From: Acidobacteriota bacterium
GTDB taxonomy: Bacteria; Acidobacteriota; Blastocatellia; Chloracidobacteriales; Chloracidobacteriaceae
NCBI GenBank assembly: GCA_016208495.1
Contig: JACQXX010000070.1
Span: 1-64,000, forward strand
Reading direction: 5' to 3'
DNA: 64,000 nucleotides
Each line of letters begins with the position of its first letter. Positions within the stretch are counted from its first letter, which is position 1. The notes under the pieces were generated by a model. That model made no database searches. It was given only the letters and a program-made list of their open reading frames with translations, and was not told the DNA's origin. Positions 3,201 through 31,459 of this stretch are shown piece by piece. Made by a program: the position numbers and the translations under genes.

Positions 3201-4363
3201 ATCAATGCATTGACCCGTCCATCGGTGAGCCCCTGATCTTTTCCCCAGAGGGTGACTGCCTCATCCACCAACCGTGCCACGCCGCGTTTGGTGGCAAACC
3301 ACATCACCCCTGAGCGATCCTGGAGTATCGAGGTGACTTCCAACGAAGATAAAATTGATTCTGGGAGTACTCGTTCGAGGGAGTGTTTGGCGGCTGGCTG
3401 GAGATAGATCCCTTCACTGGTGGCAAACCACAATCCGCCATTCCGATCCCGTAGGATCGCGTTGACCTGCAATGTGCCAATCAGGTGCCAGGGCACATCC
3501 GTGCGTTCGGAGGATTCATAATTCTGGCCATTGTACCGACACACACCGTGCGTGGTGCCAAACCAGATGCTTGAGTCCCGGTCCGGATACACGCAGAGCA
3601 CCTGGTTAGCTGGGAGTTTCGGGACAGTAAAAGACCGGTTTTTTTGCTTATTTCCAAGCGGGATGGTTGATACCCGAGCCAGCACAACGGTTTGTTCGTT
3701 CGTCACGCCTGACGTAATGGAAATGCCATCCAGGTCACGCGTTTCATACCCGGTCACCGATACCCGCATTTCATAGAATCCATTGACCAGTCGTCCAAAA
3801 AAATACTCACCGTTTCCCACATCAAAGGCCCGTCGCGTGGTTTCGTCATTTGGACTGCGGATCGTAATCACGCCGCCGGCCAGGCGCTCGTTGGTTTTTT
3901 GGTCATAGAGGGTAATGCGCAATGAGGTGGGGAGCAGTTGCCGTGGAGGAAGGATGACGGTGGTTTCTTCGGGTTTGGGGAGCGCAATTGGTTGCTGGAC
4001 AGGACGATAGCCGCCGGCGCGAATGAGCAGCGTGTAGTTGCCCGTGCGCGGCACCGTGATTGAGAACTTCCCATCGGCCTGCGACAGCGCCAGTTGCTTA
4101 AAATTTGCCGCGCCAGTCAGCGTGAGTTGTGCTCCACTAATCGGACGATTGAGTTCATCCGTCAAAATGCCCTGGACAGTAATGGTGCCAGGTTGCTGGA
4201 AGAAGACAAAGAAGTGGTTTTTTGCAAAGTTTGAATTACTGGAAATTGCTATCGCTCCGCTCCCCTCCAACACCAGTAAAGCCACGCCAATCAGAAACAA
4301 GCGAGTCGCGAGTCGCTTGTCGCGAGTAGTTCCTGAAGAAGGGGTGGAGAGATTACTGGCCAT
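221..4363 (-). CDS. Membrane beta-propeller sensor fused to a STAND-like NTPase
   Basis: A 1380-residue protein that probably senses a ligand outside the cytoplasm and signals through an NTPase. In order: an N-terminal hydrophobic segment (about 20-40), a carboxypeptidase-regulatory-like beta domain (about 60-125), a second beta domain (about 146-215), many two-component-regulator propeller blades with recurring W-F-A-T-x-x-G units (about 250-830), a Y_Y_Y domain (about 855-930), one membrane helix (about 943-963), then a cytoplasmic ATPase with the entry motif FFGRED, Walker A GERRTGKSS (near 1029) and Walker B LILLVDE (near 1134), and a winged-helix-like C terminus. Such propellers normally precede a histidine kinase; here there are no H-box or HATPase motifs. 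The ATPase resembles the AAA/STAND type, so the output could be NTP-dependent assembly or DNA binding, which is inference. The stop codon lies inside a heptamer array. Confidence 0.88.
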   Translation of the reverse strand: MASNLSTPSSGTTRDKRLATRLFLIGVALLVLEGSGAIAISSNSNFAKNHFFVFFQQPGTITVQGILTDELNRPISGAQLTLTGAANFKQLALSQADGKFSITVPRTGNYTLLIRAGGYRPVQQPIALPKPEETTVILPPRQLLPTSLRITLYDQKTNERLAGGVITIRSPNDETTRRAFDVGNGEYFFGRLVNGFYEMRVSVTGYETRDLDGISITSGVTNEQTVVLARVSTIPLGNKQKNRSFTVPKLPANQVLCVYPDRDSSIWFGTTHGVCRYNGQNYESSERTDVPWHLIGTLQVNAILRDRNGGLWFATSEGIYLQPAAKHSLERVLPESILSSLEVTSILQDRSGVMWFATKRGVARLVDEAVTLWGKDQGLTDGRVNALIESKVGGQVLAATDQGLFRFNGQWSLVSIQNPSGNPIGEIFGLSEDNSQTLWMTTATGLYSLIGDILFKAEPGAVNVPLTRCAVDALGNVWCVPTGKGIVVYDPLRREAAELLGTDQVLTLAVDREGSLWFGTNEGAIFHDVFSFVGFDTSRGLTDSDVYAIAPDTSRKHLWVGTSRGVSEFDGIQFRQLDQLPPDVMVRRLLVAPDGALWIAASTGLFRWDGSSLLKTEPTLFPNLELQDIVIDTKRPLVWVATTNSVIPINPVTLKPEGEPVRIDGKVRFLMQASSGLLWVATDRGAYRYDPTKAELVVIGTDQGLKSLDVRWILEQPTKGQFWFATGHSVESYDGSRFDLEPISSATKGADVRCLFLDQDGYLWVGLGDGNLRKFLPQIAGLTKTYKRDDYDLTGTRIRTITQDAAGILWFATDQGLTRHVPNRLTPPIDIKLEVDGAEISQPSPVYISSGQHRLKFQYVGISMMSDVAYLYRLVGDKNGNDEWKLIDADRPNKTESPVMDLPPGEYTFEVRALNRDLYGWNAPPTQLTVRIDRPIYTKPWFLAVGITLLASGGTGIFLIRRHQRREYFLPPHLKTFRPIEPNPYIVGNPIRQPQMFFGREDDFNYVRKKLEGTAQGLVIVFCGERRTGKSSILYQIQNGRLGVRFVPVFIDMQEMIIESDGEFFQRMARLIAESVHRHLGPESTLEFPFHSQSGTPRYDSKRYPFTQVGTNPFDLFREFINEVLRMIGDRRLILLVDEYELLETKVENKKLNREIFAFLAGLIDSHDQLSFIFTGSKKIEQRDRRYWREMLRRSLFRKVGYLSQRDTFRLTTEPVRDQVVYGRGVVERIYRLTAGQPFYTQVICQNVIDYLNEHKRHFIVRADLKHIIGEIVDNPLPQMIYFWEGLSDDEKLVLSLLAEVISDDSQFATAARLARVIVRNDYPVTLSENTIRLTLEELFRSEILIKEGNEDFAYRIDLMRYWIKRSHSIWQVVREVKTL

Positions 4364-4396
4364 TCACGGTGAGGCTTTCGGGGATTAGAAATGCCA

Positions 4397-4645
4397 GTTA
4401 AGAGTTGAAGCAGTTTTTGGTTTTCAGCCCAGGAACTGGGTGTCGGCTCGTAGCCCAGGGTGAGTCTTCGAGCCCTGGGAATTCGGGTCATTCCCCACTT
4501 TTCCCTGCCCGGCCAGCCGCCGCCTACGGCGGCGGCTGGCCGGGTAGGGGTGAGGATGCGACGTTTTCCCAGGGTTAAAACCCTGGGCTAGCGTGCCTTC
4601 CGCCCAGTTCCTGGGCTCAAATCCGCTCTTTTTTCAACTCTTAAC
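4397..4645. mobile_element. Nested palindromic element with terminal inverted repeats
   Basis: This 249-bp element fills most of the gene-free stretch 4364-4734. Exact 13-bp terminal inverted repeats (GTTAAGAGTTGAA at 4397-4409, its complement at 4633-4645) enclose a second inverted pair around GCCCAGGAACTGGG and its complement near 4605-4620. At the centre is a hairpin at 4503-4549 with roughly 22-bp arms, one G-T wobble and a TAC loop. Further CCCAGGG/CCCTGGG pairs lie between. No ORF is supported. The 5' edge resembles the start of the element at 7489, so they form a family with different interiors. Confidence 0.75.
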
Positions 4646-4734
4646 CAGCAGTAGAAGACGACTTTCAAGGACTTGAAAGGGCTTGAGTGGTTGTCTGGTC
4701 CGACTATTCGCTATTTCCTACTTCACTATTTTAC

Positions 4735-6321
4735 TCAATACGCATTATCCCCACGCAGCACAACCGGGATGGTCAGGAGCAGGATTTTGAGTTCCAACCA
4801 GATTGACCAGTTTTCGATGTAATAGAGGTCAAGTTGCACCATCTGTTCGAAATTCAACCGGTTGCGGCCTGAAACCTGCCAGAGTCCGGTGATGCCGGGT
4901 TTGATGTTAAACCGGGAGCGGTGCCACTCTTCATATAGTTCGACTTCGTAAGGGATCGGCGGTCGTGGACCGACCAGGCTCATTTCACCAATCAGGACAT
5001 TGAGCAGATTGGGTAATTCATCAACGCTATAGCGTCGGATCCATTCGCCAATATGAGTCAATCGGGGATCATTGGCAATTTTGCCGAAGATGGGCTGTTC
5101 GTCATCGCCTTGATTGGCGGATTGGGCGTTGGTGATGTTTTGGCGCATCACTTCGCGATGAATTGAATCATCGGCATCAACCCGCATTGATCGGAATTTG
5201 TACATCTGGAAGACACGGCCATCCATGCCGACACGCTCCTGTTTGTAGAGCGCAGGTCCTGGAGACTCGCGTTTAATCAGAAAGGCAATCACCGCCCAGA
5301 ACGGGGCCAGGAGAATGATCCCGACACTGGCGCCAAGAATGTCAATGGTGCGTTTGAGGATTCGATTTGGACCAGCCAGGGGGTCTTCAAAAAGTTTGAT
5401 CATCGGCAGCGAGCCAATTTGATCAATTTCCGTTTTGCGCGGCAGGCAGTTAAACAAGTTTGGCACCACCCGAAAGGTCAAATGGTGTTTGCGTCCCACG
5501 CGCATCATGGACTGGAAAATATCACGGGACGGAAGGGTTGAATCAGTAATCAAGATTTCCGTCACCCCAGATTGCTTGGCCAGCGCCGGTAAGTCATCAA
5601 ATTGACCTAAAATCGGCACTCCCTGAACTTCACCCCTTTCTAATTCTTCCGGCGTTGAGCTGCGTGTGGCCAACGCACCGACAACATAGTACCCAAGCCG
5701 TGGTTCCTCGGAAATTTCAGCAATGCACACCTGCGAACTCTGACCCGTGCCCACCACCAGCGTTGGAATCAGGTTCAGTGACCGGCGGCGCAAGATATTC
5801 TGGAGGCTTCGCAGCAGGATCCGCACCAGAGCATAGCCTCCCAGTGCCAGGGCCCAGTCATAGACAAACACCAGCCGGGAGTAGGAAAACGTCTGAAAGG
5901 CAAACCCGCCGCGGAAGAAAAACACAATCACAATCACCAACAAGGAACTCATGGTGACAGCTTTGACCAGATGGGTGGCATCTTCAAAAAAGGCGTATTC
6001 GCCGCGCAGTTGATAGAGTCCGTAATAGCGCAAAGTCAAAATGCGCACCACTGGAATAAAGGCCAGCAGCGCAAAATATGGACGAAACCCCCAGGTGATA
6101 TCTGTCGGCAACCAGGCACCAAGCGGGCGATAAAAAACTGCTTCATTGTGCCGCAGGTAAAATGCCACCAGAAACGAAGCCGTGGCCACGATCAAGTCAC
6201 ATAAAACCAGCGCCACCGTGGCCGTGCGCAGGACGTGGGCGTCGGATGGAACCACCCGCGGAAAAGGCAAAACCTGTGTCTGAGGAAGTGCGGAGGAAGA
6301 CCCCGGACCTTTGGATGACAT
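4735..6321 (-). CDS. Polyprenyl-phosphate sugar-1-phosphate transferase (exopolysaccharide initiation)
   Basis: This inner-membrane enzyme should move a sugar-1-phosphate from a nucleotide sugar onto undecaprenyl phosphate, the first step of capsule, O-antigen or exopolysaccharide assembly. The 528 residues show four N-terminal membrane helices (about 35-56, 80-98, 120-137, 150-168), a Rossmann-like CoA-binding domain (about 185-300, starting LIPTLVVGTG), and a C-terminal bacterial sugar-transferase domain (about 323-528). Signature motifs there are KFRSMRVDAD, VDELPNLLNV, MSLVGPRPP and PGITGLWQVSGRN. The size and layout fit the WbaP/PssY type. The sugar cannot be told from the sequence, and no other polysaccharide genes lie beside it. 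Confidence 0.93.
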   Translation of the reverse strand: MSSKGPGSSSALPQTQVLPFPRVVPSDAHVLRTATVALVLCDLIVATASFLVAFYLRHNEAVFYRPLGAWLPTDITWGFRPYFALLAFIPVVRILTLRYYGLYQLRGEYAFFEDATHLVKAVTMSSLLVIVIVFFFRGGFAFQTFSYSRLVFVYDWALALGGYALVRILLRSLQNILRRRSLNLIPTLVVGTGQSSQVCIAEISEEPRLGYYVVGALATRSSTPEELERGEVQGVPILGQFDDLPALAKQSGVTEILITDSTLPSRDIFQSMMRVGRKHHLTFRVVPNLFNCLPRKTEIDQIGSLPMIKLFEDPLAGPNRILKRTIDILGASVGIILLAPFWAVIAFLIKRESPGPALYKQERVGMDGRVFQMYKFRSMRVDADDSIHREVMRQNITNAQSANQGDDEQPIFGKIANDPRLTHIGEWIRRYSVDELPNLLNVLIGEMSLVGPRPPIPYEVELYEEWHRSRFNIKPGITGLWQVSGRNRLNFEQMVQLDLYYIENWSIWLELKILLLTIPVVLRGDNAY

Positions 6322-23366: not shown

Positions 23367-24917
23367 ATGGACCAGCCACGCACTCGTCAGGAACTCTATG
23401 AACGCATTCGGCGGACTTCGCGCGAGGAGTTTATCCTTGAGGAAATGATCCGGCTTGGGTTTTGGCCGCGTGAAGGTCAGACGCCTTCGGATCCAGCCGA
23501 TGAAATCCGTCGCCGCGGAGAACTGTCACGGGAGTTGACCAAGCTCCGGACAGAGAATGCCCGGTTGTACAATGAACAGGCGTTGATTCAGGAAATGCGT
23601 AAGCGCCGGCTGGCTGAATCGCGTCAAAAGCAACAGGAAACGAAAGCCCGGCACGAACGCGAACGCCAGGAACGGGCCCAAAAGTGGCGTGAGAAAAAAC
23701 AACACGAAATTGTTTTTCTTGGAGAGAAAGTTTCCGGTGGGTTGAACTACACGGAATGTGACGAAGCTCGGTTAAACCAAAACGGGCTGTCAGCATTTTC
23801 CACGGCTGAAGACATTGCGGCGGCAATGGGGATTTCGCTGAGTGACTTGCGGTTTCTGGCCTTTGATCGAAAAACCTCGACCGTTTCGCATTATGTCCGA
23901 TTCAAAATTCCCAAAAAAACCGGTGGCGAACGATTGATTTCAGCGCCCAAACCACACTTGAAGGCTGCCCAGGAGTGGATTTTACACACGATTTTGGAAA
24001 AGGTGACCCTTCACGAAGCTGCCCATGGCTTTCGGACTGGACGTTCGATTGTGAGCAATGCCCGGCCACACCTCAAAGCCGAAGTCATTATAAATATTGA
24101 TTTAAAAGATTTTTTCCCTTCGATTGCCTATCCACGGGTGAAAGGGTTGTTTCGGTCGCTTGGGTATTCTGAACAAGCCGCAACCATTTTTGGCCTGATT
24201 TGCACTGAGCCGGATGTTGAGGAAGTCGAACTAGACGGAAAAACCTATTTTGTCGCGCTTTCAACCCGTCACCTTCCGCAAGGAGCACCAACCAGCCCGG
24301 CGTTGACCAATATTTTGTGCCGTCGGCTCGACCGAAGGTTGACCAAACTGGCTGAGAATCGGGGATTTGTGTACAGCCGGTATGCTGATGATTTGACGTT
24401 TTCAGCTTCGGGCAACGCAAAACAGAATATTTGCAATGTACTGCGCGGGGTGGAGTCCATTACCGCCCACGAAGGTCTGGCCATCAACACAGAAAAAACC
24501 CGCATTCTGCGCCATTCACGTCAGCAGGAAGTCACTGGCGTTGTGGTCAACGAAAAGCTCAATGTCTCGCGTGAGGAATTAAAGCGCTTTCGGGCCGTGT
24601 TGTTTCAGATTGAAAAAGATGGTCCAGAAGGGAAGCGGTGGGGAAATTCGAAGGATGTGATTGCTTCGATTCAGGGGTTTGCCAATTACGTGGCCATGGT
24701 CAATCCCGAAAAAGGCGCTGAGTTTCAGGCTCAGGTGAAAGCAATCATTCAGAAATATGGGTGGCAACGCCCGGCGTCGCATCGAAGGTCAATGGCCAGT
24801 TCTGAATCGCAGTATCCAGGTCCTGCTTCAGCTCCAGAACCGGAAGTGACTTCACCTGCCACCCCGGAATCTGAATCGTCGAAAAGCAATGATAAGAAGT
24901 GGTGGAAGCTGTTTTAA
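23367..24917 (+). CDS. Retron-like reverse transcriptase
   Basis: A 516-residue RNA-directed DNA polymerase. A charged helical N-terminal extension (about 1-120, rich in Arg/Glu/Gln) precedes the polymerase (about 150-440). Visible motifs: FKIPKKTGGERLI (RT1), NIDLKDFFPSI (RT3, catalytic Asp near 245), LPQGAPTSP (RT4), SRYADDLTF (RT5, YADD at 339-342) and INTEKTRI (RT6). Two retron hallmarks are present: NARPH at 231-235, matching NAxxH, and VTG at 389-391. The C-terminal about 60 residues are low-complexity Ser/Pro/Glu. No maturase or HNH domain is seen, so it is not a group II intron protein. Known retrons have an msr-msd RNA upstream; see the findings for candidates. Confidence 0.9.
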   Translation: MDQPRTRQELYERIRRTSREEFILEEMIRLGFWPREGQTPSDPADEIRRRGELSRELTKLRTENARLYNEQALIQEMRKRRLAESRQKQQETKARHERERQERAQKWREKKQHEIVFLGEKVSGGLNYTECDEARLNQNGLSAFSTAEDIAAAMGISLSDLRFLAFDRKTSTVSHYVRFKIPKKTGGERLISAPKPHLKAAQEWILHTILEKVTLHEAAHGFRTGRSIVSNARPHLKAEVIINIDLKDFFPSIAYPRVKGLFRSLGYSEQAATIFGLICTEPDVEEVELDGKTYFVALSTRHLPQGAPTSPALTNILCRRLDRRLTKLAENRGFVYSRYADDLTFSASGNAKQNICNVLRGVESITAHEGLAINTEKTRILRHSRQQEVTGVVVNEKLNVSREELKRFRAVLFQIEKDGPEGKRWGNSKDVIASIQGFANYVAMVNPEKGAEFQAQVKAIIQKYGWQRPASHRRSMASSESQYPGPASAPEPEVTSPATPESESSKSNDKKWWKLF

Positions 24918-25038
24918 GTGAAAAGCGAGTAGCAAAATGAAGAGTGAGTAGCGAGTTGGATGACAGGCATTGAGTCAGGCTCAATCATTGTCTTCATTAT
25001 TAAATAGTTTGATTTCATACACTTACCGAGGTCAGAGT

Positions 25039-25512
25039 ATGGGATACACAACCACATTTTCTGGGGTGTTCTACTTCAATAAATCACTCACACCTAAAAT
25101 CATTGAAAAACTGAGAGAGCTTGAGGGAATGGACGGACGTGATTTTGACGATGATCGTCCCCAGGGGTATTGTAAGTGGAATTTGACGAAGGATTTAAAG
25201 GGGTTGGCCTGGGATGGGGGAGAGAAATTCTACGGCTATATCGAGTGGCTCGAATGGATTATTAAACGAATTCTGAAACCTGCGAAAATTGAAATAAACG
25301 GAATGGTCGAATACCAGGGTGAATTTGTTGAGGATTGTGGCGCCATCATTGTAAAAGCCAATCAGGTACGACTGGCGAGAGTTTCAGTTCTGGAAGCATT
25401 GGAACTGAAAGCCTTTAAAGACTTTGTTTTAGATAGTGAATACGGTGAAGCCATTTGGGAGCTGTGGAGCCTGCATAAAAAGACGTTGCAGGAAAAATTG
25501 AGCCAATCATAA
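25039..25512 (+). CDS. Conserved-looking protein of unknown function
   Basis: I do not recognise this family. From ATG 25039, preceded by GAGG at a suitable distance, it has 157 residues; the frame is open back to a TTG at 24970. It is a small soluble mixed alpha/beta protein with GYTTTFSGVFYFNK at the start, GYCKWNLTKD and a repeated Trp/Gly-rich middle (WDGGEKFYGYIEWLEW), and MVEYQGEFVEDCGAIIV. No signal peptide or membrane helix. It follows the reverse transcriptase in the same direction after 121 bases and ends before a strong hairpin, so it could belong to the same transcript. Confidence 0.65.
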   Translation: MGYTTTFSGVFYFNKSLTPKIIEKLRELEGMDGRDFDDDRPQGYCKWNLTKDLKGLAWDGGEKFYGYIEWLEWIIKRILKPAKIEINGMVEYQGEFVEDCGAIIVKANQVRLARVSVLEALELKAFKDFVLDSEYGEAIWELWSLHKKTLQEKLSQS

Positions 25513-26478: not shown

Positions 26479-26940
26479 TTAGCGTTTTGAATCGCGAGAC
26501 GGATGATTGAGATACCGGGTCGCGGTTCGTAAGTATTGATCCCTCAGTTTGGGATCTTCGATGGTGTTGGCTACATCCAGTAAATCAGGGTCAGGTGGTG
26601 GAAGTGGCTGCAGTGGAAGGAGCGTCGGGAGTGACCGTCGCTTTTCTTCCACCCAGGCTGAATCCACGACGATCTGAATGCGGGCCACGAGTGGCTGACC
26701 CAGGGTAGAGTTTAACCGGAATAAAACTTGGTCGGTGAGGGTGTCAAGTTGTTTTTTCCATCGCTGATCAAGTGTGGCCACGGTTAAAAGCTTGCCTGAG
26801 AGGCTGACGGGAGCGCTGATTCGAGACGTCGCCTGTCCAACTGCCAGGTCCCAGGCCGCAAAGCAGGCACTCTCCAGAATTTCTTCATTTTGCCCTGCTG
26901 CCTTAATCATCAGAGGCAGCAATCGTGACATACTTTCCAT
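26479..26940 (-). CDS. DUF721 (DciA-like) protein
   Basis: A 153-residue protein. The N-terminal half fits the DUF721 domain: a helix with [25 protein letters not shown] and then [23 protein letters not shown]721 proteins include DciA, which helps load the replicative DnaB helicase in bacteria without DnaC. The C-terminal tail (about 105-153) is Pro-rich and charged. The gene is on the same strand as TerD and the UshA-like gene, with gaps of 37 and 81 bases, so they may be co-transcribed. Assignment to DciA itself is by general resemblance. Confidence 0.75.
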
Positions 26941-27021: not shown

Positions 27022-28131
27022 CTATTTTCCACCAGATGCTGGTTGTTGTTGTCTGGCTCGTTTGATTTGCTCTTCCACCATTTCCTGTCGGGCTTTTTCA
27101 ATCGCGGCTTTCGCTTCAGCGACCACCGAGGCAGCCTGTGCATCGTCAGGAATAAATGAATCAAGCGGGACATACCGGTTGAGAAACGTTGGTTTCCCGG
27201 CTTTGTCAAACTTGACGCGTAACTCCCCAAGCTGTTTGGTCTCACTGAAACTGGTAATGAATGAAACATTGCCAATCGGTTCAATTGGCGAGACATAGGG
27301 TTGGTTAAACCCGGAAATGACCACATCTGCCTCCTGGCAGGAGGTGGCCAGCAATTTGGCTTTATCCACCGGCATATAAGCCAGCACGATCAACAAATTG
27401 ACTTTTTTGCGCAACTCGGGAAGGACCTCCCGGGCGGCTTTTTCCGGATCACGCCAGACGTACCCGAGATGGGCGGCTGGCGCTGGCTCACTCAACCCAA
27501 CAATCCCGACTTTGATTTTTCCCTTTGGCAACCGTGGGCTCTTGACCTCTCGAATCACATACGGCACCACGGGAAGATGGCTTTGGGCGCTCACTTCCGG
27601 TGTCAGATTGGCCGAGATCATGGTTTTGAGGCCAGGGAATTCAATCAGTGCCGTTTTTTCTTGTTCTTTGGTCAACCACTGGCTCAGGTACGGCAAATCA
27701 TGGAATGAAATATTGGCGGCATCAAACGGAAACTGGCTATATCCCTGCAGGGCATAGTGGTTTTGAGCCGCAATGTCTTTGAGCGGCGGCGTGTAATTCG
27801 CCCCAGCATCGTTGAGGTAATAGCCCACGTTCAACTCCAGAACGGGAGTGGTCGGGAACAATTTTCGAAAAGCCTGTGTGTAACTGACGCGCCGCGCCAG
27901 ACCCCCCATGGGATGGGCCCGTCAACCACAGGTATCAATATTCCCGCGGGTATCCCCACCGTACAGAATGGTCAGCTCGGTCCCATCATCAGTACCAAGC
28001 AGGTTTTTAAATGCCTCTGACATGGCGGGTTGTCCGGGAGACTGGCGTGGGGCCGAAAAGGCTGAGGCCAGGCCATTGACCAGAACAAACAATAATGCAA
28101 AGGACAAAAATCGAAGGAATCGTGAATTCAT
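27022..28131 (-). CDS. UshA-like metallophosphoesterase, probable selenoprotein (in-frame TGA = Sec70)
   Basis: Read through the TGA at 27922-27924, one frame of 369 residues runs from ATG 28131 to 27022. It starts with a signal peptide (FLRFLSFALLFVLVNGLASA) and continues as a periplasmic 5'-nucleotidase-like phosphoesterase: LTILYGGDTRGNID, then T-C-G-(TGA)-R-A-H-P-M-GGLARR, later KVGIVGLSEP and ADVVISGFNQP. Homologous UshA-like proteins that I recall carry CGC followed by GGLARR, so the TGA replaces the second Cys. The frame has no other interruption, which argues against decay. A suitable hairpin lies 21 bases downstream. Without read-through the gene would make only a 69-residue stub. 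Reading it as two separate genes or as a pseudogene is the alternative. Sec insertion would need selA, selB, selC and selD elsewhere in the genome. Confidence 0.78.
27884..27900 (-). promoter_or_regulatory. Candidate bacterial SECIS hairpin
   Basis: On the minus strand CTGGCGC GGC GCGTCAG forms a 7-bp stem (one G-U pair) with a 3-base loop beginning with GG. It begins 21 bases after the TGA, and the loop lies about 28-30 bases after it. This fits the usual description of bacterial SECIS elements: apical loop roughly 16-37 bases downstream and a G among the first two loop bases. It lies inside the coding region, as expected in bacteria. Confidence 0.55.
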
Positions 28132-28211: not shown

Positions 28212-29855
28212 TTACGACGGTTTGGTCGGGAACGTCCCTTTTCGATCTGGAAGACCCTCTTCCCCTTTTGGAGCTTTGGTGACTGCCTTTTTGGCATTTT
28301 CCAAATCCGTATGAATTTCCTGGATGGTTTGTTGTTTGACTTCGTGAGTGATGGTTTGGTTTTCGATCAAGTGTTTGAGCTTTTGTTCTCCCCGTTCCAA
28401 CCGGCTCAGATGGTTATGGAGTTCGGTTTGGGAAATGGAAAGTTGATCAGGTGCGGAAAGGTGTTGCTTGAGTTTGAAAATTGTTTCCCGGACTTCGTTG
28501 AGCATCCGCGCCGGGTCATTTGGTTCCGGGGTTCGCCCAGGGTCTCCAGCCGGCATTGATCCATTTGTGCCACCAGTCCGATCTGGAAATGATTCCGGGG
28601 CCGGAGCAGGTGGATCCGGTAAGTGACCGGATTGAGCTGGTGGTGGGGTTGACTCAGTGCCCGTCAGTTTGAAATACCCGGCGAAAAAAATCAGCAGCAG
28701 TCCAATCAAAAGAATCAGTCCACCACCAATTCCCACCACGATCCATCGCACCGGAACCCGACCCGGTACCGGCTGGGGCTTGTGGGGGAGCACTTGCGGC
28801 GCCATGGCAGGTGCCGGCGCGGGCGCTGGTCGGGTACTGGCCAGCGGGGCAGTTGGGGGAGGTGGCAAGGACGCAACGGCTCCAGGTTGAGGCTGCGTGT
28901 GTGATGGAAATGCCGAGTAATTGGGTGACGGGGGGGGCAGTGACCCAAGCAGCGCCGTCATTGGGGAACTCTGGGGAGGGGTGCCGTTCTCAGGATCGGT
29001 TACTGGCGGTAACACATTGAACGTCTGGGTAATGGTCAGATTGCTGCCGACTGGAAGCGATTCGCCGTCAAACCGTACCACGATAACGGTGATGTTATCT
29101 TCGCCGCCCCGTTCATTGGCCAGATCAATCAGAGCCCGGCAGGCCGCTTCAAGGCTTGGGGAACTGAGCACAATGCTTTGCATTTCCAGGTCCTGGACTT
29201 TGTTTGAGAGTCCATCACTGCACAGGAGCAGGAAATCGCCGCGACAAAGTGCAATCGTGGTGACTTCGGCATTTAAATGTGGCTGAGTTCCAAGTGCTTG
29301 TAAAATAACATTGTTGGGGATATTGCGCGGATCAACCCCAGTTTTTTTGATGGCATTGGCCCAGGATTGATCTTCGGTGATTTGTTTAATTTGCCGGCCC
29401 CGGACGATGTAGGCCCGTGAATCACCAACTTGTGAAACATAGAGGTGGCCTTGATGAACAAACGAAGCCGTGAGCGTTGCTCCCAGGCCGCGAACACTCA
29501 TATCGGACTGGGATTTCTCCCAAATGCGCTGATTGGCAATTTCCGACGCCCGACGCAAGGCTTCAGCGATTGGGACCCCGGGATTGGTTTCCCGGGCCAT
29601 TTCTTCGAGCAGGATTTGCACCGCCATTGCACTGGCAACTTCACCGGCGGCGGCCCCGCCCATGCCATCACTGACCACAAACAGGCTGCCTCGATGGCCA
29701 AGGCGGTGAGTGAGGACTTCCGGACACAACCCGGTCTGACCAGTGGACACATCAGCCACCAGAAAGCTGTCTTCATTCCCGCTTCGGCGCCGGCCTACGT
29801 CTGTGCGCGCTGAAACAGAAATCAGAATGTCATTCTGAGAAACCGACATATCCAT
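28212..29855 (-). CDS. PP2C-type Ser/Thr phosphatase with membrane anchor
   Basis: ATG 29855 is preferred (AGG 6 bases upstream); a TTG at 29876 would add 7 residues. The 547 residues begin with a PP2C domain (about 10-250): RRRSGNEDSF, VVSDGMGGAAAGEVAS, GDSRAYIVRG, LLLCSDGLSN and GGEDNITVIVVRF, with the metal-binding aspartates in place. A Pro/Ser/Ala-rich linker (about 260-365) leads to one membrane helix (about 372-395), then an outer Pro-rich part and a helical, Gln/Glu/His-rich tail. It should reverse Ser/Thr phosphorylation at the membrane. The FHA protein upstream is on the same strand, so a kinase-phosphatase-reader circuit is likely; the nearest kinase in the window is at 57-60 kb. 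Confidence 0.93.
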   Translation of the reverse strand: MDMSVSQNDILISVSARTDVGRRRSGNEDSFLVADVSTGQTGLCPEVLTHRLGHRGSLFVVSDGMGGAAAGEVASAMAVQILLEEMARETNPGVPIAEALRRASEIANQRIWEKSQSDMSVRGLGATLTASFVHQGHLYVSQVGDSRAYIVRGRQIKQITEDQSWANAIKKTGVDPRNIPNNVILQALGTQPHLNAEVTTIALCRGDFLLLCSDGLSNKVQDLEMQSIVLSSPSLEAACRALIDLANERGGEDNITVIVVRFDGESLPVGSNLTITQTFNVLPPVTDPENGTPPQSSPMTALLGSLPPPSPNYSAFPSHTQPQPGAVASLPPPPTAPLASTRPAPAPAPAMAPQVLPHKPQPVPGRVPVRWIVVGIGGGLILLIGLLLIFFAGYFKLTGTESTPPPAQSGHLPDPPAPAPESFPDRTGGTNGSMPAGDPGRTPEPNDPARMLNEVRETIFKLKQHLSAPDQLSISQTELHNHLSRLERGEQKLKHLIENQTITHEVKQQTIQEIHTDLENAKKAVTKAPKGEEGLPDRKGTFPTKPS

Positions 29856-29968
29856 GAGAACCTGATCCTTCAACACTCAAAGTCGCCTGGGATGAGGGCC
29901 CAGGTCTGGTGAAAAAACGGCATTCTGGGTATCGGGCGTGTCATCCAGATGCAATTTTCAGAACGGTT

Positions 29969-30916
29969 CTATTGCACTTCAAACCGAAACAATTGTTTGC
30001 CGATTAAAACGACATCTCCTGGTTTGAGAACGACATCCCCATCAATCTTAATAAATGTTCCGTTGCGCGAGTTTTCGTCATTGAGAATGAACTGGTCCCC
30101 GCGTCGTGAAATTTTGGCGTGTCGGCCTGACATGTACCCGTCATGAGGAAATCGAATGTCGCCTGAATTGCGACCAACCGTAACCTGATCGGAATCCAGG
30201 TTATACACTTCGCCTTCGCCGCCACCTTCCTGAATGAGCCGGAGTCGGGCAACCGGTCCCCGAGTCGGCGAGGCAATAGCAATGGTGGATTCGGCGGGTT
30301 GCCCGGTGAGTTTATTGCCACAGGAGGCGCAAAAACTGCTGCCGGCTGGATTGGATTTACGGCAGTTGGAGCAAATACTGCCCCCGGAAGGCTTTTCGTC
30401 CTGGCGGGGAGGCGAGACTTGAGTGGGGCCTGGGTAGCCGCCTTGCATTGGGCCACCTGGACCAACCTGGGCCACCACGGTTGGCGGGGCGGCCATCGGC
30501 TGGGCAATGACGGTCGGAGGCGCCACCATCGGCTGGGCAATCACAGTTGGGGGGGCCGCCATCGGCTGGGCAATCACCGTCGGGGGGGCTACTGGAGGTG
30601 ACGGCGGCGGGGCCTGTTTCGGAGCAACCGGGACCGCCATCGGTGGTGCCGCCGCAACTGGAGCCCGGTGAAGCGGAGACCCGCATTGTTGACAAAATGC
30701 CCAGGAGGAATCATTCACTGCACCACAGGTGCCACATAAAACTTCGCCAGGTCCAGGCATGTCCCCAGGCCCTTTGGGGGCATCATATCCACCGGCCACA
30801 ACATTTGCTGGAGCAACAAGGGTTGCTGGGGCCTCAAGCGGTGTCGCACACATCCGACACATGGTTGCCGTGGGTTTGTTTTCCGCCCCACATCGAGGAC
30901 AGGTCGTGATTGCCAT
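29969..30916 (-). CDS. Zinc-ribbon and FHA-domain protein
   Basis: GAGGAG 9 bases before ATG 30916 sets the start; the frame opens further upstream to 31048. The 315 residues carry three zinc-ribbon-like Cys pairs (CPRCGAENKPTATMCRMC near the start, CGTCGAVNDSSWAFCQQC near 55-75, CSNCRKSNPAGSSFCASC near 185-205). Between the second and third is a Pro-rich stretch of four 11-residue APPTVIAQPMA repeats. The C-terminal FHA domain (about 225-315) has VTVGRNSGDIRFP, MSGRHAKISRR and LNDENSRNGTFI, which bind phosphothreonine. It likely reads kinase output beside the PP2C phosphatase, 113 bases downstream on the same strand. Confidence 0.92.
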   Translation of the reverse strand: MAITTCPRCGAENKPTATMCRMCATPLEAPATLVAPANVVAGGYDAPKGPGDMPGPGEVLCGTCGAVNDSSWAFCQQCGSPLHRAPVAAAPPMAVPVAPKQAPPPSPPVAPPTVIAQPMAAPPTVIAQPMVAPPTVIAQPMAAPPTVVAQVGPGGPMQGGYPGPTQVSPPRQDEKPSGGSICSNCRKSNPAGSSFCASCGNKLTGQPAESTIAIASPTRGPVARLRLIQEGGGEGEVYNLDSDQVTVGRNSGDIRFPHDGYMSGRHAKISRRGDQFILNDENSRNGTFIKIDGDVVLKPGDVVLIGKQLFRFEVQ

Positions 30917-31459
30917 TGCGAAAAATCTCCTCTGTCTCAGGTTATGTGAAAGTAAGGGTCCTATAGTAGCCTGGAACCAAAAAATGATGGCTGGAAGGAA
31001 GATAGCGTCGTTGATGCGTGCCCGTGTTGTATTGCCGAAATATACCACAGGCGTTGCAAATCAAGACAAGGCTAATTCAGTGGGTTTAGGGTTTTCAATC
31101 AGGGCAAAGGGCTGAGGGCTGAGGGTTGAACAAAACCCATGTCCTTCAGCCCACATTCCCTGGGTTCAGAGACAATGGCGTCAATCTCAACTCTTCGGAT
31201 TGATTTTATCCCTCGCCCCTTAGATTTTAGGGAGTCGGATGGAAATATCATACCACCAGGGTTCAGGGTTCAGGGTTTAGGGTTCAGGGTAGGTTAATCC
31301 AACTTGAGCCCTAACCGCCGGTTTCCAGGTACTTATCTTGAGCGGGATCAGTCGCTTCATCGCCTCAAACCCTGAACCCTGAACCCCGTTTCATTGGGAT
31401 TTTATTTTCTTCTGGGTCCCTTATCCTCCATCCGTTGATGTTTGCCGTCCAAACCCAGA
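30917..31459. other. Gene-free interval with GGTTCAG heptamers
   Basis: No supported gene. GGTTCAG-family heptamers lie at 31258-31291 and, in complementary orientation, at 31368-31388. The stretch must contain the promoter of the zinc-ribbon/FHA gene, but no promoter boxes could be assigned with confidence. Confidence 0.6.

Follow-up and report, generated by a model that had tools for sequence, protein, structure and literature searches.

A probable UshA-like selenoprotein without the tetraheme domain in an acidobacterial genome

Does an in-frame TGA within a long open frame mark a broken gene, the gap between two genes, or a codon for selenocysteine? The window analysed here, a stretch of 64,000 nucleotides from an Acidobacteriota genome, raises this question on its minus strand, where a frame of 369 codons running from 28131 to 27022 is interrupted just once, by a TGA at 27922-27924. 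Our recheck returned the same frame that the first-pass annotation had described. Translated with the TGA as an amino acid, it yields a protein of 369 aa, MNSRF...NIDTCG(U)RAHPMGGLARRV...SGGK, which starts MNSRFLRFLSFALLFVLVNGLASAFSA... and reads NIDTCG-(TGA)-RAHPMGGLARRVSY around the interruption; TCGU, followed by GGLARR, is what the motif of the family model NF041198 (C-x-U/C, then GG[LIV]ARR) describes. A helix is predicted over residues 4-25 in the structure model, within the probable signal peptide. Reading the interval as two genes, a 69-aa peptide and a 295-aa ORF starting at the ATG at 27909, was rejected: the two halves align continuously with homologues that carry Cys. The features of the locus are collected in Table 1.

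Table 1. Positions in the window of the predicted selenoprotein gene, its elements and its neighbours, with the basis for each assignment.
Feature	Position	Strand	Basis or remark
Probable UshA-like selenoprotein gene, 369 aa, TGA=Sec at codon 70	27022..28131	(-)	homology on both sides of the TGA; NF041198, 1.1e-29
In-frame TGA, read as selenocysteine 70	27922..27924	(-)	TGA or Cys codon in 61/61 motif-intact sequences
C-G-U motif, Cys68-Gly69-Sec70	27922..27930	(-)	C-x-C/U invariant in alignment A6
bSECIS hairpin CTGGCGC-GGC-GCGTCAG	27884..27900	(-)	kept in register and covarying where homologues have TGA, decayed where they have Cys
Probable signal peptide, MNSRFLRFLSFALLFVLVNGLASAFSA...	28057..28131	(-)	judged by eye from a positive n-region, a hydrophobic core and A-x-A
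dciA (PF05258, 2.6e-11), next gene downstream	26479..26940	(-)	pairing conserved across the class
PP2C-type phosphatase gene, upstream	28212..29876	(-)	also upstream in Chloracidobacterium-type relatives; neighbour only

If the TGA encodes an amino acid, what stands at the same column in relatives? Scanning public genome contigs with the single protein gave no relative; a four-sequence profile gave four, the best of them from Blastocatellia and Chloracidobacterium, so that the window probably comes from this part of the Acidobacteriota. A search of the phylum produced matches in 72 of 396 genomes. Among 61 non-redundant family members of this phylum whose motif is intact, the window gene included, the second motif residue is specified by TGA in 34 and by a Cys codon in 27, with nothing else at that position, and both C-x-[Cys/TGA] positions are invariant. 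The earlier proposal that the TGA occupies the column of a second Cys is therefore borne out, homologues with the motif intact having Cys or TGA there and never a random residue. TGA is found at the same codon in a sister genome (G051, contig JAIBAN010000007.1, 58% identical) and in 32 further loci from many families; within the window's own family of genomes, the sister carries TGA and three Chloracidobacterium-type genomes carry Cys. Sec and Cys forms are intermingled in a tree of the 61 sequences, which implies frequent switches between the two. Genome G339 contains two close paralogues (branches of 0.1 each), L078 with Sec and L053 with Cys; where the SECIS element would lie, L053 retains a hairpin of 7 bp, probably the RNA relic of a recent switch from Sec to Cys.

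Cys stands at this column in many relatives, and a multi-contig assembly may contain errors, so one might suppose a nonsense mutation, a sequencing error or a decaying pseudogene, with TGA in place of TGC or TGT and no full-length protein made, but we give this a negligible chance and reject it, because the TGA shared with the sister genome and the 32 other loci excludes a sequencing error and because the frame is otherwise intact, with third-position-biased changes on either side of the TGA and a conserved, covarying hairpin behind it. The first-pass annotation had judged decay unlikely on the intact frame, and had named a resequencing result that removes the TGA as the way it might fail; the former stands, and the latter fails given the shared TGA.

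Published rules for bacterial SECIS elements specify a loop of 3-9 nt, a stem of 4-16 bp, a G in loop position 1 or 2, a spacing of 16-37 nt after the UGA and a minimum free energy of at most -7.5 (PMC13188914). The hairpin at 27900-27884 conforms to every one of them: it has 7 bp including one G.U pair and a 3-nt loop (GGC) with G first, begins 21 nt after the TGA, places its loop 28 nt after it (about 28-30 bases in the earlier description, which had recognised the same stem and loop) and has a folding energy of -8.6 kcal/mol. How often would this happen by chance? Across the 2898 TGA triplets of the window, 2.6% are followed by a hairpin that passes, and 1.8% by one of equal stability. Five TGAs in the window bridge at least 60 open codons upstream and at least 150 downstream, and the one at 27922-27924 is the only one of these with any such hairpin. 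Note that when 61 nt reaching upstream of the TGA are folded without constraint, a different structure is preferred, and the fold is no more stable than those of shuffled sequences (z = -0.16), so that support for the hairpin comes from comparison between species rather than from the energy of a single sequence.

For this comparison, gapless alignments were anchored on the GGLARR codons, and the same columns were scored in TGA-type (A1) and Cys-type (A2) members. In the former, 91.6% of cells are paired, against 78.2% after shuffling (0 of 500 shuffles as high), pairing falls to 30-43% when the partner is slid, and covariation is 0.475 against 0.227 shuffled (0 of 500), with two-sided changes in five pairs. 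In the latter, 64.1% of cells are paired and covariation is 0.262 against 0.209 shuffled; the shuffles leave relatedness in, and the contrast between the two alignments is drawn over one and the same protein motif. Judged from these alignments, the SECIS hairpin decays in Cys-type members. The sister genome offers a second view (L009 against L073): the 12 codons after the TGA contain one change in 36 nt, whereas third-position changes affect 15 of 26 codons before the TGA and 159 of 276 in the remainder. A constraint on the RNA in this stretch would produce such a near-absence of changes.

The source genome (8.4 Mb, 99% complete) encodes the machinery that decoding would need. A search for selA, selB, selC and selD, as proposed with the first description of the locus, recovers all four: selB on contig C92, selA on C109 (1.6e-166), the tRNA-Sec gene selC on C136 (63.1 bits, gathering score 47) and selD on C116. 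Since selA is widespread, occurring in most of the phylum and also in genomes that have no member of the UshA-like family, we regard its presence as necessary and not as diagnostic. One genome, G104, has a TGA-bearing family member and selB and gave no match to selA in an assembly that is 91% complete.

A column restricted to TGA or Cys, the Sec machinery, and a rule-conforming hairpin that covaries in TGA members and decays in Cys members together make selenocysteine the best reading of TGA 27922-27924, and we put its probability at roughly 0.95 on this comparative evidence. The same three lines uphold the earlier suggestion that Sec replaces Cys in a CGU motif. Under this reading, SelB and Sec-tRNA, placed by the hairpin 28 nt downstream, would decode UGA codon 70 as Sec, and the product, presumably translated through the UGA in vivo and exported by way of its signal peptide, would be a periplasmic protein of 369 aa with a Cys-Gly-Sec motif.

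To which family does the protein belong? Its best match is NF041198, the UshA-like (seleno)protein model, at 103.5 bits; the curated cut-off of 275 is not reached, and the match covers positions 20-270 of a profile of 519. Both the score and the partial match follow from the absence of a C-terminal tetraheme cytochrome c domain: the window protein contains no CxxCH, and the tetraheme region of the model (profile about 350-519) is absent from it. The cut-off is also a strict one, since even a tetraheme homologue from the same class scores 266.6 bits. A tetraheme-bearing relative matches PF13435 (Cytochrome_C554). Counting CxxCH matches, 25 of the 61 sequences in the tree have at least three, made up of 20 Sec and 5 Cys forms; the other 36 are short. 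By these sequence criteria, the window gene is a short, divergent homologue of the NF041198 family, not an equivalog, and its product is the tetraheme-less form of a known family of UshA-like (seleno)proteins. The suggestion at first reading that the family may not be new is confirmed by the NF041198 match and the CxU motif. A 2008 ocean survey reported UshA-like selenoproteins as COG0737 with a CxU motif and counted them with the small number of major Sec families that lack a conserved redox motif based on Cys (PMC2398784); reviews list the family as well. A score below the NF041198 cut-off, together with an ordinary ORF call that begins after the TGA, makes it likely that the current curated model passes over the gene; a standard pipeline probably overlooks it, as the first-pass annotation foresaw, and calls a 295-aa fragment instead.

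Could the protein be the phosphoesterase that its name suggests? A profile of 45 family members searched against the PDB finds 5'-nucleotidases, CD73, UshA and SoxB, and Foldseek on the predicted model returns the same fold relatives (CD73, UshA, SoxB). Aligned with the Thermus thermophilus 5'-nucleotidase 2z1a, the family profile has D-x-[R/H/Q] in place of DTH, G-[N/H/Y] in place of GD, xx[R/H] in place of GNH, [A]Y in place of SH and nothing conserved in place of GHSH. Invariance in the family lies elsewhere: in both C-x-C/U positions, the GG after them, two further Gly and one Asn.

One could still imagine that Sec is inserted into a working metal-dependent phosphoesterase or nucleotidase, in which Cys-Gly-Sec modulates activity or binds metal. 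The UshA/CD73/SoxB fold is clear, and the window protein retains D60, an aspartate of DxH, as well as one histidine of the GNH type. At the ligand motifs DxH, GD, GNH, H and GHxH, however, it reads D-T-R, G-Y, F-H, Y and none: the bridging Asp of GD is Tyr (Asn, His, Tyr or another residue in relatives), the SH histidine is Tyr, and the GHxH pair is gone. It also lacks the C-terminal domain of 5'-nucleotidases and has no match to Pfam Metallophos, unlike L011, a genuine metallophosphoesterase of this type in the same genome, which matches the model and has its ligands intact. We therefore consider a surviving phosphoesterase activity quite improbable. Of the first-pass label "UshA-like phosphoesterase", the fold is retained and the chemistry is not, the dinuclear-metal ligands being almost all gone throughout the family. 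Around the motif the AlphaFold model is weak, with a pLDDT below 50 at residues 60-76, and gives no firm place for Sec with respect to the former metal site.

Neighbouring genes, delimited with a simple ORF chooser, offer some context. The local order is PP2C-type phosphatase, UshA-like gene, dciA and then terD. About a dozen other loci, within the class and outside it, also have a dciA-like gene adjoining the family gene; in 13 loci the opposite flank is occupied by a maf-like gene (named by eye) that points the other way. The order maf-like (opposite strand), UshA-like (seleno)protein, dciA is seen in L080, L081, L090, L094 and L095, which come from several families. These adjacencies look like inherited gene order rather than a functional clue. 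On the far side of the PP2C phosphatase gene, and adjoining it, 29969-31048 (minus strand) encodes a protein that combines a zinc ribbon, an FHA domain and a low-complexity repeat (APPTVIAQPM...); the two are likely a phospho-signalling pair, and this pair too is found beside the Chloracidobacterium-type relatives. Elsewhere in the window, 23367-24917 (plus strand) encodes a reverse transcriptase that matches PADLOC's RT model for type XIII retrons very strongly (PDLC02956, 7.3e-200), followed by a short ORF (24970-25512).

A different setting surrounds the second family member of the source genome (L054, contig C148; locus at 3523-5676), which has CGC and no TGA. It is directly followed by a gene for a MauE-family membrane protein whose C-terminus, read by eye, is thioredoxin-like. 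The pairing of Cys paralogue and MauE-thioredoxin-like protein recurs in three other genomes (L055, L087, L060), and it is possible that the two form an electron-donor pair.

What, then, might the conserved motif do? The main rival to a redox role is binding of sulfur or metal. Cys-Gly-Sec would then be no redox pair but a site that binds sulfur or a metal(loid), and might carry sulfane sulfur by analogy with the related SoxB. SoxB is among both the sequence and the structure relatives, which speaks for this idea; against it, none of the genes that recur beside the family loci was recognised as a sox gene, and the tetraheme cytochrome fusion and the MauE-thioredoxin-like gene beside the Cys paralogue favour electron transfer, while being compatible with sulfur binding. 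We hold sulfur or metal binding to be unlikely, if less so than phosphoesterase activity.

For the window protein, we favour at slightly better than even odds a periplasmic redox role, that of a pseudo-phosphoesterase whose function is suggested by its sequence: a 5'-nucleotidase/metallophosphoesterase domain with a degenerate dinuclear metal site would carry Cys-Gly-Sec/Cys as its conserved centre, and Cys68-Sec70 would serve in redox or thiol-selenol exchange. Extended to the whole family, there is about an even chance that a former metallophosphoesterase has turned into an extracytoplasmic Cys-x-Sec redox protein with C-x-C/U as its active centre, wired to heme by a c554-type tetraheme fusion or working with a separate partner. 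Fused relatives would then exchange electrons between the Cys-Sec centre and haem, and the short form would do so with a separate partner; no partner gene is encoded beside the window copy. The motif had at first been called possibly redox active or metal binding, and of these the redox reading agrees with the data more closely than a phosphatase would.

The novelty of the locus is modest, in that a known but uncharacterised family gains another member. The invariant C-x-C/U, the lost metal site and the four haems in many relatives nonetheless make a redox role a concrete and testable proposal, and with its repeated Sec/Cys switches, one of them in the recent duplicate pair of G339 with its SECIS remnant, the phylum is well suited to studies of how Sec is lost.

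How does the protein compare with systems already described? With NF041198 it shares C-x-U followed by GGLARR, a metallophosphoesterase-like domain and the position taken by Sec or Cys, and differs in having no C-terminal tetraheme cytochrome c region. Likeness to UshA-like (seleno)protein family 2 (NF049981) is weak (1.9e-8; 34.1 bits against a cut-off of 140), and the Sec motif of that family is CxxU, unlike CxU (PMC13188914). UshA and CD73 (PDB 1ush, 4h2i, 2z1a) resemble it in the fold of the N-terminal metallophosphoesterase domain, whereas the window protein has most ligands replaced, no C-terminal substrate domain and C-x-C/U added. The thiosulfohydrolase SoxB (PDB 2wdf, TIGR04486) has the same fold and weak sequence similarity (3.4e-5), from which the window protein is set apart by a score of 22.3 bits (cut-off 550), the loss of the metal site and a neighbourhood in which no Sox genes are seen.
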